NCBI RefSeq assembly: GCF_020215645.1 | Contig: NZ_CP084058.1 | Span: 7,564,001 to 7,628,000, forward strand | Direction: 5' to 3' | DNA length: 64,000 nucleotides | Origin: Nonomuraea gerenzanensis | GTDB lineage: Bacteria > Actinomycetota > Actinomycetes > Streptosporangiales > Streptosporangiaceae | Shown here: positions 4,103-10,088 of the stretch, piece by piece | Position numbering within the stretch: position 1 is the stretch's first letter | Layout: every line of letters begins with the position of its first letter | Program-made: the position numbers and the translations under genes | Notes under the pieces: generated by a model | Told to the model about the DNA's origin: nothing | The model's database searches: none | What the model saw: the letters and a program-made list of their open reading frames with translations, nothing else

Positions 4103-4702
4103 TCAGAACGTCGGTGGCGGGGAGGCCGGTTTGGCGCGCATGCCCTCGCAGATCACCTCCGCCATCCGCACCGCCCCACCCCTGGCCCGCGCACGGCGCT
4201 CGGCGGCCAGGCAGCCACGCAGCAGGTCGTGCACGTCCTGCGGCGCCAGATCGGCCCGCACCGCCCCCACCCGCTGCGCCCGCGCCAGCAGCCGGGCCAG
4301 CGCGGCGGCGAAGTCGTCGGCCAGCGTGGAGCCGGGCCGCAGCGTCATCCCCGAGCCGCTCTCCAGCATGTCGCACAGCGCCTGGTTCGCGGCGGCCTGC
4401 TCGACCACCGTGGTGAACCAGCCGAAGAACGCCCGCCCCGCGTCCTCGGCGGTGGCCAGCGCTCTGGCGTCGGCCACGAACCGCTCGATCCGCCCCAGCA
4501 GCACCGCCTCGACCAGCGCCTCCTTGGTCGGGAAGTGCCGGTAGACGGTGCCGACCCCGAACCCGGCCCGGCGGGCGATCTCGTCGAAGGAGATCGTCAG
4601 CCCGTCACTGGCCAGGGCCTCCTGCGCGATCTGCAGGACCCGCTCGCGGTTGCGGCGGGCGTCGGCGCGCAGCGGCCTGGCCGCGCTGTGATCGTCGCCC
4701 AT
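4103..4702 (-). CDS. TetR-family transcriptional regulator
   Basis: A 199-residue regulator. Residues ~17-62 form the TetR helix-turn-helix, with the recognition region G-F-G-V-G-T-V-Y-R-H-F. The C-terminal part is helical and would bind the ligand. It lies 139 bp downstream of, and in the same direction as, the ABC exporter at 4842-7019, so it is the obvious candidate to bind the dyad at 7188-7211. TetR repressors often control adjacent exporters; the pairing is my inference from position. Confidence 0.88.
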   Translation of the reverse strand: MGDDHSAARPLRADARRNRERVLQIAQEALASDGLTISFDEIARRAGFGVGTVYRHFPTKEALVEAVLLGRIERFVADARALATAEDAGRAFFGWFTTVVEQAAANQALCDMLESGSGMTLRPGSTLADDFAAALARLLARAQRVGAVRADLAPQDVHDLLRGCLAAERRARARGGAVRMAEVICEGMRAKPASPPPTF

Positions 4703-4841: not shown

Positions 4842-5270
4842 TCACGACGTGTCGCGAAGCGGCCCGGGAGGGCCATCAGCCCCACCCGGACGCCCTCGCG
4901 AGCCCTCCGGCCCGGACGAGCCCTCAGGCACAGCCCGGCACTCGGTCGCGTTCGGCCGAGCCGACGCCGAGGCGCGCCTGGGCGCGGGCACCGGCTCGGC
5001 GCCGACCTCCCGGCCCGGCATCGGCGAGCGGCCGGACGCCTGCACATGGTCGGGCGCCAGCGAACGCCCGGACGCCAGCGGACCGCCTGACGTCGGCGAG
5101 CCACCGGAGGCCGGTGAGAGGCCGGACGTCGGCGAGCCGCCGGAGGCCGGGCTGGACGCCAACGACCCTGCGGACACCGGCGACCCGCCCGCGACCGGCG
5201 AGCGACTGGACGCCGGCGAGCCACCCGGGACCGACGACCGGCTGCGAGCCGGCACGCCGACGCGCTTGAG
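4842..5270 (-). repeat. Repeat-built coding region for the exporter tail
   Basis: The DNA for the C-terminal tail contains related direct repeats, for example GACGTCGGCGAGCC with a following CCGGAGGCCGG near 5091 and again near 5127 (36 bp apart). All remain in frame, so the tail has grown by repeat expansion without loss of frame. Confidence 0.5.
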
Positions 5271-7019
5271 CCGGATGCGCTCCTCGCGCGGCACCGGCTC
5301 CAGCACCACCACCCGCACCCTGTCCGGCAGATTCCGCAGGTCGTGCGTGATGAGCAGGGTGGTCCGCCCGGCCATGAGCCGCCGCAGCGGCCGCATCACC
5401 TGAGCGGCGGTGGCGTCGTCGAGCCCGGCCGTGGGCTCGTCGAGCACCAGCACCGGCGTGTCACGCAGGATGGCCCGCGCGATCGCCACGCGCTGCCGCT
5501 GCCCCCCGGACAGCAGGCGCCCCCGCTGCCCCACCGGCGTGTCGTACCCCTGCGGCAGCAGCTTGACGAAGTCGTGCACCCCGGCCGCCTCCGCCGCCCT
5601 GATCACCTCGTCGAGCGAGGCGCCGGGCCGGCCGTAGGCGATGTTGTCGCGTACGGACCCGGAGAACAGCATCGTCTCCTGGTGCAGGATCGTCACGTTG
5701 TCGCGCAGCGACTCCCGCGTCAGGTCCCGCAGGTCTGTGCCGTCCAGCAGGATGCGCCCCTCGTCCGGGTCGTAGAAGCGCAGCAGCAGCTTGGCCACCG
5801 TGGACTTGCCCGCCCCGCTGGGCCCGGCCAGGACCACGACCTCGCCGGGCTCGACGGCGAACGACAGGTCCCGCAGCACCGGCCGCCCGCGTCCCGGGTA
5901 GGCGAAGCCGACGCGTTCGAAGGCGACGCGGCCCCGGCTGCGGCCGGCCGGCGCGGCGTCGCGGGCGTCGGTGACCGCGGGCCCGGTCCGCAGGATCTCC
6001 ACGACCCTGTCGGAGCCCGCCGCGGCCTCCGAGACCGTCATGGCCAGCTCGCCCAGCGCCTGCACGGCCGGGTAGAGCAGGGCCAGGTAGGCCGCGAAGG
6101 CGAGCAGCCCGCCGAGCGTCAGCCGGCCCGCCGCGATCTCCCACGCGCCGAACCCGAGGATGACGATCAGGCAGACGGTCTCGATGACCTGGACCACCGG
6201 GCTGTAGAGGCCGGCCAGCCAGGCCTGCGCCATGTTGGCGCGCAGCCAGCCGCGGCCCTCGCCGTGCAGCCGCCGCGACTCGGCGTCCTGCCGGTTGTAG
6301 GCCTGCACGAGCGGCTGGTTGGCCAGCCCCTCCTCCAGGACGCTGTTCATCGCGCCGTTGCTGGCCCGTTCGAGTGCGGCCGCGGATCTGAACCGGCCCG
6401 CGAACACCTTCGAGACCACCAGGAACAGCGGGATCAGCGCCATGGTCAGCAGCGCGAGGTCCCATCGGATGAAGAAGGCGGCCCCCGCGAAGAAGATCAC
6501 GCCGGCGACCGTGGTGATGATCTTGACCAGCCCCGACCCGACGAGCTCCTCGATGGCCTCGATGTCGTCCGTCAGGCGGGCCATCAGGTCGCCCAGCCGC
6601 CGCTTCTCGGCGAAGTCGGGGGCGAGCGTCTGCACGTGCGCGTACACGCGGTCGCGCAGGGCCAGCAGGAAACGTTCGGCGCCCAGGGCGGTGGCGTAGG
6701 CCCCCGCGAAGGACGTCACCCCGGCGACGGCCGCGAGCCCGAGCCACCAGACGGCGGGCGCCCAGAAGGCCCCCAGGTCGCGGGTCGTCAGCACTTCGTC
6801 GGTGATGTGCCCGAACAGGCGGATCGCGGCGACTTCGCAGAGCGCGGCGAGAATGGCGAACACCACCCCGGCCGCGAACAGCTTCCGCAATCCGCGGGTG
6901 TCCGGCCAGAATTCGCGAAAGGTGCGGCGAAGGGAAATCGCCGGTGCGAGTTCACGGCCGGAGGCGCTCAAGGAGAGCCGGCGGCTGAGCCGCCGGCTCT
7001 CAACGGGGCGCTCTAGCAC
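4842..7019 (-). CDS. ABC exporter, fused membrane and ATPase domains, with long low-complexity C-terminal tail
   Basis: A half-size exporter of ~725 residues. A six-helix ABC membrane domain covers residues ~40-330. The ATPase follows with Walker A G-P-S-G-A-G-K-S-T near 397, signature L-S-G-G-Q near 503, Walker B V-L-D-E-P near 525 and the H-loop T-H-D near 558. The last ~140 residues are Ser/Gly/Pro/Ala-rich and repetitive (units like S-P-A-S-G-G-S-P-T-S-G), which is unusual for the family. The start is uncertain: GTG 7019 overlaps the stop of the 38-aa peptide gene and would be coupled to it; TTG 6971, just after the hairpin, is the alternative. The substrate may be the neighbouring peptide or a drug. 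No C39 peptidase domain is present. Confidence 0.85.
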   Translation of the reverse strand: MLERPVESRRLSRRLSLSASGRELAPAISLRRTFREFWPDTRGLRKLFAAGVVFAILAALCEVAAIRLFGHITDEVLTTRDLGAFWAPAVWWLGLAAVAGVTSFAGAYATALGAERFLLALRDRVYAHVQTLAPDFAEKRRLGDLMARLTDDIEAIEELVGSGLVKIITTVAGVIFFAGAAFFIRWDLALLTMALIPLFLVVSKVFAGRFRSAAALERASNGAMNSVLEEGLANQPLVQAYNRQDAESRRLHGEGRGWLRANMAQAWLAGLYSPVVQVIETVCLIVILGFGAWEIAAGRLTLGGLLAFAAYLALLYPAVQALGELAMTVSEAAAGSDRVVEILRTGPAVTDARDAAPAGRSRGRVAFERVGFAYPGRGRPVLRDLSFAVEPGEVVVLAGPSGAGKSTVAKLLLRFYDPDEGRILLDGTDLRDLTRESLRDNVTILHQETMLFSGSVRDNIAYGRPGASLDEVIRAAEAAGVHDFVKLLPQGYDTPVGQRGRLLSGGQRQRVAIARAILRDTPVLVLDEPTAGLDDATAAQVMRPLRRLMAGRTTLLITHDLRNLPDRVRVVVLEPVPREERIRLKRVGVPARSRSSVPGGSPASSRSPVAGGSPVSAGSLASSPASGGSPTSGLSPASGGSPTSGGPLASGRSLAPDHVQASGRSPMPGREVGAEPVPAPRRASASARPNATECRAVPEGSSGPEGSRGRPGGADGPPGPLRDTS
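6973..7001 (-). terminator. 13-bp hairpin between peptide gene and ABC exporter (terminator or attenuator)
   Basis: A perfect inverted repeat: GAGAGCCGGCGGC at 6973-6985 and its exact complement at 6989-7001, loop of 3 nt. It starts 11 nt after the stop codon of the 38-aa peptide gene and lies before or within the first codons of the exporter. No U-tract follows, so it may act as a partial terminator, an RNA-stability element or a translational attenuator rather than a classic intrinsic terminator. Confidence 0.65.
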
Positions 7020-7129
7020 CCCCACCACCGGCGCCGGTGGCAGCAGTTCCACCTGCGATAGCAGCGGCGGCGGCGTCGGCAGCCCCACCCTTGCTGGTAT
7101 CCGGCCTGAGACAGTTGCGTGTTCGCCAT
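7013..7129 (-). CDS. 38-residue Arg/Cys/Trp-rich peptide (candidate secreted peptide precursor or regulatory leader peptide)
   Basis: ATG 7129 is preceded by an excellent Shine-Dalgarno, GGGGGAGGA, spaced about 4-6 nt. The peptide has a neutral Gln/Ser/Gly-rich first part (residues 1-16, starting M-A-N-T-Q-L-S-Q) and a strongly cationic second part: C-R-R-R-R-R-C at 17-23, W-N-C-C at 27-30, R-W-W-G-C at 34-38. In total 5 Cys (17, 23, 29, 30, 38), 10 Arg and 4 Trp; Cys is the last residue. The stop overlaps the GTG of the ABC exporter. I recognise no family. Two readings fit: a leader/core peptide exported by the neighbouring ABC protein, or an upstream ORF whose translation controls the hairpin and the exporter. 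A third, chance coding in a GC-repeat stretch, is made less likely by the Shine-Dalgarno. Confidence 0.6.
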   Translation of the reverse strand: MANTQLSQAGYQQGWGCRRRRRCYRRWNCCHRRRWWGC

Positions 7130-7165
7130 GATTCCTCCCCCGTTGGCTGAACACTGACAAATCGG

Positions 7166-7171
7166 ACGCTA
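7166..7171 (-). promoter_or_regulatory. Candidate extended -10 for the peptide/exporter unit
   Basis: On the minus strand TGC-TAGCGT forms a TGN-extended -10 of the TANNNT type. It would give a leader of ~30 nt carrying the Shine-Dalgarno of the peptide gene. An alternative -35 TTGAAA lies at 7214-7209 with weak -10 candidates near 7186-7191. Confidence 0.35.
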
Positions 7172-7187
7172 GCACCCGAAATGCGAT

Positions 7188-7211
7188 AAATCAGCAGATA
7201 TTCGCTGATTT
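7188..7211 (-). promoter_or_regulatory. 24-bp dyad operator upstream of the peptide/exporter unit
   Basis: AAATCAGC and its complement GCTGATTT enclose an 8-bp AT-rich centre; only two symmetric pairs of the 24 bp mismatch. Size and symmetry suit a TetR-type dimer, and the TetR gene at 4103-4702 is the nearest candidate. The site would overlap the -35 region of the proposed promoter. It stands out as AT-rich in very GC-rich DNA. Confidence 0.65.
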
Positions 7212-7314
7212 CAAACAGTCTTGACTGGTAAAACCAGGCCGGAAAGGCACTCACGGCGAAGAAGTAAAGGCGTCCGGCGACAGGTAAAACGACAGGGAGA
7301 GGTCAAGGCGGCAC

Positions 7315-7350
7315 AAAAGATGCTCCTGAGAACCAGTTCTCAGGAGCATC
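7315..7350 (-). terminator. Intrinsic terminator of helY
   Basis: A near-perfect palindrome with 15-bp arms (7319-7333 and 7336-7350) lies 15 nt after the helY stop and is followed on the minus strand by TTTT at 7318-7315. Classic rho-independent form. It separates helY from the peptide/exporter unit. Confidence 0.85.
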
Positions 7351-7364
7351 CTCGGCGGGCCGGC

Positions 7365-10088
7365 TCAGGTGAGCGACGAGTACGCCACCACACCCCGCCG
7401 CATCGCGTCCATCGCCTTCACCGCGGTCTGCTTGATCTTGCTGCCGGGCGGCGCCGCGTTGCCCAGCTGACCGAGCAGGTCCATCAGCTGCTTGATCCAC
7501 CGTACGAAGTCACCGGCGGCCAGCTCGTTGCCGTTGACGCCCTCCATGAGCACCGCGTCCAGGCTGTGCCCCTTGGTCCAGCGGAACGCCGCCCACGCGA
7601 AGCCCAGATCCGGCTCCCTGATCGTGGACAGCCCGTGGTCGGACTCGATGCCCTCCAGCTCGCCCCACAGCCGGATCATCGCCGACAGCGCGTCCTGCGC
7701 CCGCCCCGCGGGGATCTTCGGGCGGCGGGTGTCGTCGGACGCCCGCGACTCGAACACCAGCGCCGACACGCATGCCGCCAGCTCCGCCGGGTCCAGCTCC
7801 TCCCACAGCCCCTTGCGCAGCGACTCCGCCGTCAGCAGGTCCAGCTCCGTGTAGAGCCGGCCCAGCCGCCGCCCCTCGTCGGTGACCGCCTCGCCGTCGA
7901 GATAGCCGAGCTGCTCCAGCACCGAGCAGATGCGGTCGAACGTGCGCGAGATGACATGCGAGCGCCCCTCGACCCTGCGCCGCAGCCCCTCGGTCTCCCG
8001 CAGCAGCTTGTAGTACCGCTCGGCCCAGCGCGCGTGATCCTCCCGCTCGTCGCAGCCGTGGCACGGGTGCTGCCTGATGAGCCGGCGCAGCTCGTTGATC
8101 TCGTCGTCCTCCACCGTGTGGTCGCGCGCTCTGACCGGCTTGCCCAGGTCGCGGTCACCGATCTTGGCCAGCAGCGTGGAGACCAGGTTGGCGCGCTCCT
8201 TCGGCGAGCGGCCGTTGAAGTTCTTCGGGATGCGCAGCTTCTCCAGCGGCTCCACCGGCACAGGGAAGTCGGCCGGGTCGAGCTTCTTGATCTGCTTGCC
8301 GATCGTCAGCACCAGCGGGCTCGGCCCGGTGCCGCGCGGGTTGCGGCCCGGGTCCAGCACGATCGCCAGGCCCGCCCGGCGCCCGCCAGGCACCCGGATC
8401 ACGTCACCGGGCTGCAGTGCCTCCAGCGAGCGCACCGCCGCCGCCCGCCGCGCGGCGCCCCGCTGGCGCGACAGCTCCGCCTCCCGGTCCGACAGCCGCC
8501 GCCGCAGCGCCGCGTACTCGGGGAAGTCGCCCAGGTGGCACGTCATCGCCTCCTGGTAGCCCTCCAGCGCCTCCTCGTGCTTGCGCAGTTGCTTGGCCAG
8601 CCCCACGACCGCCCGATCCGCCTGGAACTGCGCGAACGACTCCTCCAGCAGCGTCCTGGCGCGCTCGCGGCCGAACTGGCCGACCAGATTCACCGCCATG
8701 TTGTACGACGGCTGGAAGCTGGACCGCAGCGGATACGTACGGGTGCCCGCCAGCCCCGCCACCGACAGCGGGTCCATGCCCTGCTGCCACAGCACCACCG
8801 CGTGACCCTCGATGTCGATGCCGCGCCGCCCGGCCCGGCCGGTGAGCTGGGTGTACTCCCCCGGCGTGAGGTCGGCGTGCGTCTCGCCGTTCCACTTGTC
8901 GAGCTTCTCGATCACCACGCTGCGGGCCGGCATGTTGATGCCCAGCGCCAGCGTCTCGGTCGCGAACACCGCCTTGACCAGCCCGCGCGTGAACAGCTCC
9001 TCCACGACCTCCTTGAAGGCCGGCAGCATGCCCGCGTGATGGGCCGCCAGCCCCCGCTCCAGGCAGTCGCGCCACTCCAGGTAACCCAGCACCGCCAGGT
9101 CCTCGTCGGGCAGGTGCGCGGTGCGCTCGTCCACGAGCTGCCTGATCTCGTGCCGCTCGCGGTCGCTGGTCAGCCGGATGCCGGCGTACAGGCACTGCTG
9201 CACCGCCGCGTCGCAGCCCGCCCGCGAGAAGATGAACGTGATCGCCGGCAGCAGCCCCTCGGAGTCCAGCTTCTCGATCACCTGCACCCGGTCCGGCGGG
9301 CGCGAGCGCTGCGGCCGGCCGTAGCCCCGCCGGCCCCGCCCCGACGTCAGCCGCTCCGCGTCGCGCGTCACCCGCATCAGCGTCGGGTTGATCCGCGGCG
9401 TCAGGTCGTCGGTCATGAACAGGTCGTAGATGCGGTTGCCGACCATCATGTGCTGCCACAGCGGCACCGGCCGGTGCTCGTCCACGATCACCGTCGTGTC
9501 GCCGCGCACCTCGCCCAGCCACTCGCCGAACTCCTCGGCGTTGCTCACCGTCGCCGACAGCGCCACCAGCCTGACCGAGTCGGGCAGGTGGATGATGACC
9601 TCCTCCCACACCGCGCCCCTGAACCGGTCGGCCAGGTAATGGACCTCGTCCATCACGGCGAAGCCCAGCCCGGCCAGCGTCGCCGAGCCGGCGTAGAGCA
9701 TGTTGCGCAGCACCTCGGTCGTCATGACCACGATGGGCGCCTCGCCGTTGACGCTGTTGTCGCCCGTCAGCAGGCCGACCTTGGCGGTGCCGTACCGCTT
9801 GACCAGGTCGTTGTACTTCTGGTTCGACAGCGCCTTGATCGGCGTCGTGTAGAAGCACTTGCGGCCCTGCTCCAGAGCGAGATGGACGGCGAACTCCCCG
9901 ACGACCGTCTTGCCCGAGCCCGTGGGCGCCGCCACCAGCACCCCGTCACCGGCCTCCAGGGCCCTGCAGGCGTCCAGCTGGAAGTCGTCCAGCTCGAAGT
10001 CGTAGAGACCTCGGAACGATCTGAGAGCGGCCCCGTCGTCCCCGTGCTTCTGACGGAAGGCCGCGTAGCGTTCCGCTGGCGTTGTCAT
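7365..10088 (-). CDS. helY: Ski2/Mtr4-like superfamily 2 RNA helicase (HelY)
   Basis: A 907-residue helicase. Walker A A-P-T-G-S-G-K-T lies near residue 55, the Walker B box reads D-E-V-H (motif II), and motif VI reads T-G-R-A-G-R-R-G near residue 400. The second half carries the Mtr4/Ski2-type accessory region and a C-terminal DSHCT-like helical domain. HelY of mycobacteria sits next to tatC, as here. It probably unwinds structured RNA in RNA decay; the exact substrate is not known. A -10 box TAGGCT sits 7 nt before the ATG, so this gene has its own leaderless promoter although it follows the lipid kinase in the same direction. Confidence 0.93.
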   Translation of the reverse strand: MTTPAERYAAFRQKHGDDGAALRSFRGLYDFELDDFQLDACRALEAGDGVLVAAPTGSGKTVVGEFAVHLALEQGRKCFYTTPIKALSNQKYNDLVKRYGTAKVGLLTGDNSVNGEAPIVVMTTEVLRNMLYAGSATLAGLGFAVMDEVHYLADRFRGAVWEEVIIHLPDSVRLVALSATVSNAEEFGEWLGEVRGDTTVIVDEHRPVPLWQHMMVGNRIYDLFMTDDLTPRINPTLMRVTRDAERLTSGRGRRGYGRPQRSRPPDRVQVIEKLDSEGLLPAITFIFSRAGCDAAVQQCLYAGIRLTSDRERHEIRQLVDERTAHLPDEDLAVLGYLEWRDCLERGLAAHHAGMLPAFKEVVEELFTRGLVKAVFATETLALGINMPARSVVIEKLDKWNGETHADLTPGEYTQLTGRAGRRGIDIEGHAVVLWQQGMDPLSVAGLAGTRTYPLRSSFQPSYNMAVNLVGQFGRERARTLLEESFAQFQADRAVVGLAKQLRKHEEALEGYQEAMTCHLGDFPEYAALRRRLSDREAELSRQRGAARRAAAVRSLEALQPGDVIRVPGGRRAGLAIVLDPGRNPRGTGPSPLVLTIGKQIKKLDPADFPVPVEPLEKLRIPKNFNGRSPKERANLVSTLLAKIGDRDLGKPVRARDHTVEDDEINELRRLIRQHPCHGCDEREDHARWAERYYKLLRETEGLRRRVEGRSHVISRTFDRICSVLEQLGYLDGEAVTDEGRRLGRLYTELDLLTAESLRKGLWEELDPAELAACVSALVFESRASDDTRRPKIPAGRAQDALSAMIRLWGELEGIESDHGLSTIREPDLGFAWAAFRWTKGHSLDAVLMEGVNGNELAAGDFVRWIKQLMDLLGQLGNAAPPGSKIKQTAVKAMDAMRRGVVAYSSLT

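Follow-up and report, generated by a model that had tools for sequence, protein, structure and literature searches.

Leaderless bacteriocins, of which aureocin A53 and lacticin Q are examples, as are arcanocin and arachnicin in the Actinomycetota, are short, highly cationic, Trp-bearing ribosomal peptides that have no known leader and come with machinery of the ABC transporter kind and no protease (PMC11580447). A second arrangement is that of BmrB-BmrCD in Bacillus subtilis, where an ORF of about 50 residues, a terminator-like hairpin and a multidrug ABC transporter are found together; in that system the terminator is internal to the leader gene, which is single and contains rare codons (PMC4191407). 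At the level of the peptide alone there are also the Arg/Trp antimicrobials, such as the tritrpticin analogues, with the synthetic RRRWWW-NH2 inhibiting S. aureus at about 1 uM (PMC11858513, Table 4).

The window, the whole 64,000-nucleotide stretch of Nonomuraea gerenzanensis that was analysed, contains a gene for a short cationic peptide followed by the gene for an ABC exporter. As in the leaderless bacteriocins, peptides of the window type are short, cationic and found with an ABC transporter gene (53/53 Nonomuraea loci, all found through the exporter), but unlike them they match no sequence family, are of low complexity and hypervariable, and have one half-transporter as their sole constant neighbour. 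By analogy, the module may work like a leaderless-bacteriocin system, rather than being an established member of that family. A small ORF and a terminator-like hairpin ahead of an ABC transporter are also features of BmrB-BmrCD, although in the peptide-exporter loci the hairpin comes after the stop codon, copies are sometimes tandem and Arg codon use is like that of highly expressed genes. The exporter has the same domains as the MsbA, Sav1866 and P-glycoprotein exporters, which are its best solved relatives, yet it differs from them in its link to a peptide gene and in scoring below the curated NCBIfam cut-offs shown. The explanation preferred here, with a probability of roughly 0.6, is that the two genes form a secretion module of an exported cationic peptide and its dedicated exporter, with export, recognition and activity inferred.

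The peptide gene and the exporter gene

The peptide gene, MANTQLSQAGYQQGWGCRRRRRCYRRWNCCHRRRWWGC, is found at 7013-7129 on the minus strand and has 38 codons and a net charge of +10 (K+R minus D+E). The layout in the original prediction was reproduced at this position, with 5 Cys spaced C-x5-C-x5-CC-x7-C, a C-terminal Cys and 10 Arg; there are also 4 Trp, and the Cys, Arg and Trp are confined to residue 15 onward. The Shine-Dalgarno that had been claimed is present as GGGGGAGGA (7133-7141, minus strand, read from the sequence), its end 3 nt 5' of the ATG, and a similar site is also found 5' of the peptide gene in the relatives inspected. Before the ORF is a gene for a DSHCT-type helicase (7365-10088), and after it the exporter gene. 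Named records show that the window peptide is also found in N. parvosata (100%), N. candida, N. fuscirosea, N. wenchangensis and N. terrae.

Searches of Pfam and NCBIfam placed the window peptide in no family, and 10 varied relatives gave none in NCBIfam and one sub-threshold match in Pfam (Late cornified envelope, E 0.089). With a 43-residue relative as the query against 5.8 billion predicted proteins, no match was obtained for the Nonomuraea peptide, and the Streptomyces peptides are annotated as "hypothetical". If the peptide-secretion reading is true, gene finders miss secreted cationic peptides of the Nonomuraea and Streptomyces type.

The exporter gene (4842-7019, minus strand) has a likely start at the GTG at 7017-7019, or alternatively at 7023-7025, and encodes a half-transporter of the MsbA/Sav1866/P-glycoprotein type. 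That the adjoining gene encodes an ABC exporter, as had been proposed, is borne out by matches above cut-off to ABC_membrane (PF00664, E 2.1e-44) and ABC_tran (PF00005, E 2.3e-35), with no match to C39 or any other peptidase family in Pfam. Past the ATPase domain the exporter has a C-terminal tail (4842-5270, minus strand) that is repetitive and Ser/Pro/Gly-rich (GSPASSRSPVAGGSPVSAGS...). Downstream of the exporter and in the same direction is a TetR-family regulator (4103-4702, minus strand; PF00440, with an SbtR-like C-terminal domain). The idea of a defence system was dropped, as a PADLOC search found nothing for the peptides and its matches to the exporter were restricted to the ATPase parts.

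Linkage of peptide and exporter across genomes

In a single-sequence search of 297 genomes of the family, 216 had a match at E <= 1 and clear relatives were confined to the peptide's own genus. The matches in other genera had almost without exception the look of chance similarity, and the best of them (E 1.5e-4) was found on inspection to sit in an unrelated open frame. A peptide profile matched 27 of 54 Nonomuraea genomes, which reflects a loss of sensitivity and not absence, because the search led by the exporter recovered the peptide loci; the exporter itself has an orthologue in 53 of the 54. The sole Nonomuraea genome in which the exporter did not reach the chosen threshold has no peptide profile match either.

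Loci located through the exporter were scanned for an ORF of 25-70 codons with an ATG, a Shine-Dalgarno match of at least 4 and a net charge of at least +6, no more than 900 nt from the exporter, these rules having been fixed after the first sequences were seen. A small basic ORF led by a Shine-Dalgarno precedes the exporter at 53/53 Nonomuraea loci. Of 24 loci representing 15 other genera of the family, 21 have one, with the three misses (L127, L128 and L135) having by eye an ORF there that is near-neutral (net +1, -1 and +1). The scan found 27 of 30 in Streptomyces, a figure that rises to 29 when L170 and L188, which have a weak Shine-Dalgarno, are included by eye; at L191 there is a broken frame only, with no intact peptide ORF. 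Another 12 Streptomyces loci, most of them belonging to a second or third exporter of the genome, were read under laxer rules; 11 have the peptide and L209 does not. In a sample of the class the scan was positive at 10/10 loci, five of them Streptomyces (L158 is the same as L196 of the Streptomyces set). The ORF at L163, from another family, was judged spurious and the locus counted as being without a peptide, giving the peptide at 4/5 loci from other families. As controls, an ORF of the scan type was found before 8 of the 104 genes that have 200 nt or more free upstream, and a small basic ORF ahead of 3 of 29 other ABC exporters in the same genome, none of these three having a 70 nt fold at -30 kcal/mol or lower. 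A look ahead of orthologous exporters, proposed with the original prediction, thus finds the peptide ORF at every Nonomuraea locus and recurring in other genera, and the peptide-exporter module is both real and widespread. Among the papers found in one open-access library none describes the pairing in its title or abstract, and within that scope the module is undescribed.

Gene content around the exporter was compared in 17 neighbourhoods, namely the first 25 kb of the window plus 16 loci of other genera, of which two are on short contigs, with genes of at least 90 codons predicted by a home-made gene caller. The exporter is the sole cluster present in 17/17, the next largest clusters having 4 members, and therefore no partner modifying enzyme or peptidase was seen.

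Diversity of the peptides

In the relatives of the window peptide the N-terminus, MA[NS]TQ[LF]...GWGC, is conserved, and the remainder is R/W/C-rich and changeable. The net charge is +7 to +12 across the 53 Nonomuraea peptides, and compositions overall are R/W/C/G-, K/P/A-, P/K- or R/H-rich. Examples from other genera of the family are MTVNKLFPTSFDSWGWGGCGCRRRRCGCRRRWCGCGGWGGGWW and MSISLFPTFGGFGGFGGCGCRRRRFGCGCGCRRRFFGCGGGCGRRRFWW, and Streptomyces has types that are MSFHKIAPVKK...RRPVGHKG-like (K/P/A), P/K-rich (MSFKKLAPLPPKPK...) and R/H-rich (MSFRKVFPRRRR...). Near the N-terminus a [polar]-[ILVMF]-x-P motif is common and not universal, being found in 25/30, 8/10, 17/24 and 7/53 peptides of the sets scanned, the last of which is Nonomuraea; the window peptide is without it. 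At L135 the ORF before the orthologous exporter is G/F/H-rich and near-neutral (MVLGNFDCFGGGFGGGFGGGFGGHGGHGFGHHRRRRFHRFFHERTFFSSGGGGFEDDFC), and at L197 it is R/G/Y-rich; both resemble low-complexity sequences of the phase-separating kind.

The suggestion that the peptide has a modified or disulfide-linked core with a special Cys spacing finds no support. There are 34 variants of the spacing among the 53 Nonomuraea peptides, that of the window being found in 7 of them, the number of Cys varies between 1 and 10, and Cys is absent from 21 of the 27 Streptomyces peptides that were scanned. A fixed Cys pattern was therefore rejected, and as the spacing is not conserved a fixed pattern of disulfides or crosslinks is unsupported. 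The same variation bears on whether the peptide is a RiPP, with the conserved first part as leader, the Cys/Arg/Trp part as modified core and the modifying enzymes encoded elsewhere. A conserved first and a variable second part in the Nonomuraea peptides would suit this, as would a hairpin that sits between the small gene and the transporter gene. It is nevertheless highly improbable, given that the number and spacing of Cys change, that the 10 varied members gave no precursor family in Pfam or NCBIfam, and that no enzyme is common to the 17 neighbourhoods, although enzymes could be encoded elsewhere in the genome.

As for the C-terminus, 12 of the 53 Nonomuraea peptides and 4 of 21 others end in RRRWWW, so that 16 natural peptides share this end with the Arg/Trp antimicrobials, and a C-terminal WWW is found in 21/53 of the Nonomuraea peptides. 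RRRWWW-NH2 is synthetic and amidated, whereas the natural tail is alike in composition, also bears exporter start codons and implies no natural kinship; the resemblance to antimicrobial hexapeptides is suggestive only. Because the WWW region doubles as the exporter start, the ending is not independent evidence of antimicrobial function.

Selection and codon use

Purifying selection is specific to the peptide frame and acts on both halves of the peptide. For 7 orthologues that do not differ in length (21 pairs, pooled) the peptide frame has a pN/pS of 0.137 and the two alternative frames have 1.39 and 1.54, with in-frame values of 0.178 for the first 17 residues and 0.124 for the remainder. In a second group (n=3) it is 0.113 in frame against 2.96 and 1.79 in the others. 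Three extra orthologue pairs were too similar to inform, one having a pN/pS of 0.43 and two having 0 or 1 change. As the pooled pairs are non-independent and share a common history, these figures are descriptions rather than tests. The comparison of synonymous and nonsynonymous change put forward with the original prediction thus found the frame conserved in relatives that keep the exporter, the opposite of what would have spoken against a gene, and the 38-codon ORF is confirmed as a real gene.

The use of Arg codons in the peptides is close to that of ribosomal-protein genes and far from that of the window genes or the exporters. In the 53 Nonomuraea peptides (536 codons) CGT accounts for 0.218 and CGG for 0.155, with 0.20 and 0.189 respectively in the ribosomal-protein genes of the window's genome (90 codons). 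The values are 0.055 and 0.358 for the window genes (659 codons), and 0.053 and 0.402 for the 5' part of the exporters (1526 codons).

Expression signals and tandem genes

Upstream of the peptide gene a putative extended -10 element, TGC-TAGCGT, was picked out by eye at 7166-7174 on the minus strand, with a TGATTT-like box at 7188-7193. The block GGTGCTA(G/A)CGTCC recurs upstream of the Nonomuraea peptide genes inspected, where its role as a promoter is predicted. On the other side of the gene, 11 nt 3' of the peptide stop and within the first codons of the exporter, is a strong hairpin, GAGAGCCGGCGGC-TCA-GCCGCCGGCTCTC (6973-7001, minus strand), which is a putative terminator or expression-lowering element. 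Such a hairpin begins 7-23 nt past the peptide stop in 53/53 Nonomuraea loci. The 70 nt after the peptide ORF fold at -30 kcal/mol or lower in 52/53 of these, and when any ORF of the locus is counted the same is true of 21/21 loci from other genera of the family, 26/27 from Streptomyces and 10/10 from the class sample. That the hairpin belongs to a described RNA family was dropped, as Rfam gave no match at E <= 1 across 6700-7400. Bacteriocin operons usually have this layout, with a hairpin separating a small gene from a transporter that is expressed at a lower level.

The likely start codon of the window exporter overlaps the stop of the peptide ORF, and at 53/53 Nonomuraea loci an exporter-frame start codon is found at the peptide stop, with the frame open into the exporter; by eye, the exporter at L122 and L129 apparently starts 3' of the hairpin. 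A possible small stem over the exporter start (7002-7027, minus strand) would pair GGTGGGG, at the end of the peptide gene, with CCCCGTT in the spacer. It has a mean of 5.98 bp in 42 distinct loci compared with 5.42 when partners are shuffled, and 0/300 shuffles are as high, which is weak evidence because the loci are related in sequence. Such pairing hints that the stem may couple translation of the exporter to that of the peptide.

A strict peptide pattern matches 38 of 42 Streptomyces loci, 29 as a single gene, 6 double, 2 triple and 1 with five copies, so that 2, 3 or 5 tandem peptide genes are found at 9/42. The tandem copies have a pN/pS of 0.43 (22 within-locus pairs). The 70 nt after the inner copies fold weakly, at about -8 to -18 kcal/mol, and those after the last copy strongly, at -32 to -51 kcal/mol.

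This anatomy is also what might be expected of a regulatory leader, in which ribosomes that slow or stall on an Arg-, Pro- or Lys-rich ORF would alter the hairpin or access to the start and so set expression of the exporter, the trigger being, for instance, a ribosome-binding drug or a shortage of amino acids. Runs of poly-Arg, Lys-x-Lys and poly-Pro are hard to translate, which counts for such a leader, as do the order of ORF, hairpin and exporter with the exporter start over the leader stop in 53/53 Nonomuraea loci, and the small stem that covers the exporter start. The model would be BmrB ahead of BmrCD, a 53-residue leader before a multidrug ABC transporter (PMC4191407). Against it, 9/42 Streptomyces loci have 2-5 tandem genes with a strong hairpin after the last one only, and the Arg codons are like those of ribosomal-protein genes, whereas bmrB has rare codons (PMC4191407). 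Trp is also not kept, with Phe in its place at L121 and Trp missing from most Streptomyces peptides read, and Trp attenuation was rejected for this reason. Thus neither the rare codons nor the conserved regulatory codons of an attenuator were found. A leader accounts for the hairpin and the overlap and not for the tandem copies or the high-expression-like codons, and is therefore the less likely reading; the sensing leader that had been offered as an alternative keeps a hairpin and overlap that would suit an attenuator, is weakened on the other three counts, and is on balance unlikely.

Matching of peptide and exporter

In several Streptomyces genomes there is more than one such exporter, two or three in all, and every one of them has a peptide type to itself; paralogous exporters within one genome carry the peptide type of their own clade. 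On a FastTree of 85 exporters, from which 41 further Nonomuraea sequences were omitted, there are 13 changes among the 13 peptide-type labels, some of which were given by hand, where the minimum is 12 and the shuffled mean 48.9. Peptide type follows exporter clade, a clustering of labels that kinship alone would also give.

The tight linkage and the match of peptide type to exporter clade are also expected if the peptide stays inside the cell and serves the exporter instead of being its cargo, either as a small subunit or by accompanying an anionic substrate as its counter-ion or carrier. A low-complexity and shifting composition is unlike a fixed binding surface, and the tandem copies, with codon use like that of ribosomal-protein genes, suggest that much more of the peptide is made than of a membrane protein, so that an intracellular partner appears decidedly unlikely.

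A proposed secretion module for cationic peptides

The tandem copies, the high-expression-like codons, the conserved linkage and the cognate types do fit the peptide being a product that is exported, and together with the frame-specific selection and the otherwise differing neighbourhoods they speak for the preferred reading of a secretion module. In such a module a strong promoter and ribosome-binding site would give an abundant short, cationic and probably disordered peptide, with the hairpin and overlapping start codon holding the exporter at a lower, linked level. That the ABC exporter then pumps the peptide out is the simplest inference, and it would perhaps recognise the more conserved N-terminus of the peptide. 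Outside the cell the peptide would be a polycation, most likely acting as an antimicrobial against competitors and less likely binding the wall or matrix. Counter-evidence comes from the near-neutral ORFs of L127, L128 and L135, the missing peptide at L209 and L163 and the broken one at L191. Of the ribosomal cationic peptide tied to an exporter that the original prediction envisaged, the gene, the linkage and the conserved front with a fast-changing charged rear have stood, and the modified or disulfide-linked core has found no support.

A broader reading of the sequences, to which we give somewhat less than even odds, is that these loci make up an actinobacterial secretion system for polycationic, low-complexity and probably disordered peptides, in which charge and composition are kept and not sequence, the chemistry of the cargo is specific to the exporter clade, and one exporter may have up to five cargo genes. 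If this is true, the peptides might, outside the cell, be lethal to competitors or form condensates with DNA or with anionic polymers of the wall, antibiotic-rich genera would carry an overlooked class of secreted cationic peptide, and its members might provide new antibacterial leads or turn out to be components of a matrix. More such peptides can easily be sought by way of the exporter, and its matching to them would make it possible to ask how a half-transporter recognises disordered polycations.

Other observations

Two sister genomes have an extra, stand-alone copy consisting of the promoter block, a 45-codon ORF and a hairpin (L113:4408-4545, plus strand; L114 at about 7166-7304, minus strand), where the next gene is convergent and hence no exporter follows. 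The stand-alone copies of the sister genomes (L050, L051) have by eye 3 nonsynonymous and 0 synonymous differences; with no sign of constraint, they were dropped as proof of a product. Around the Streptomyces exporters, a response regulator and a histidine kinase are found a few genes from the exporter in three of the five neighbourhoods read (L215, L216 and L219), a pair that looks CutRS-like.
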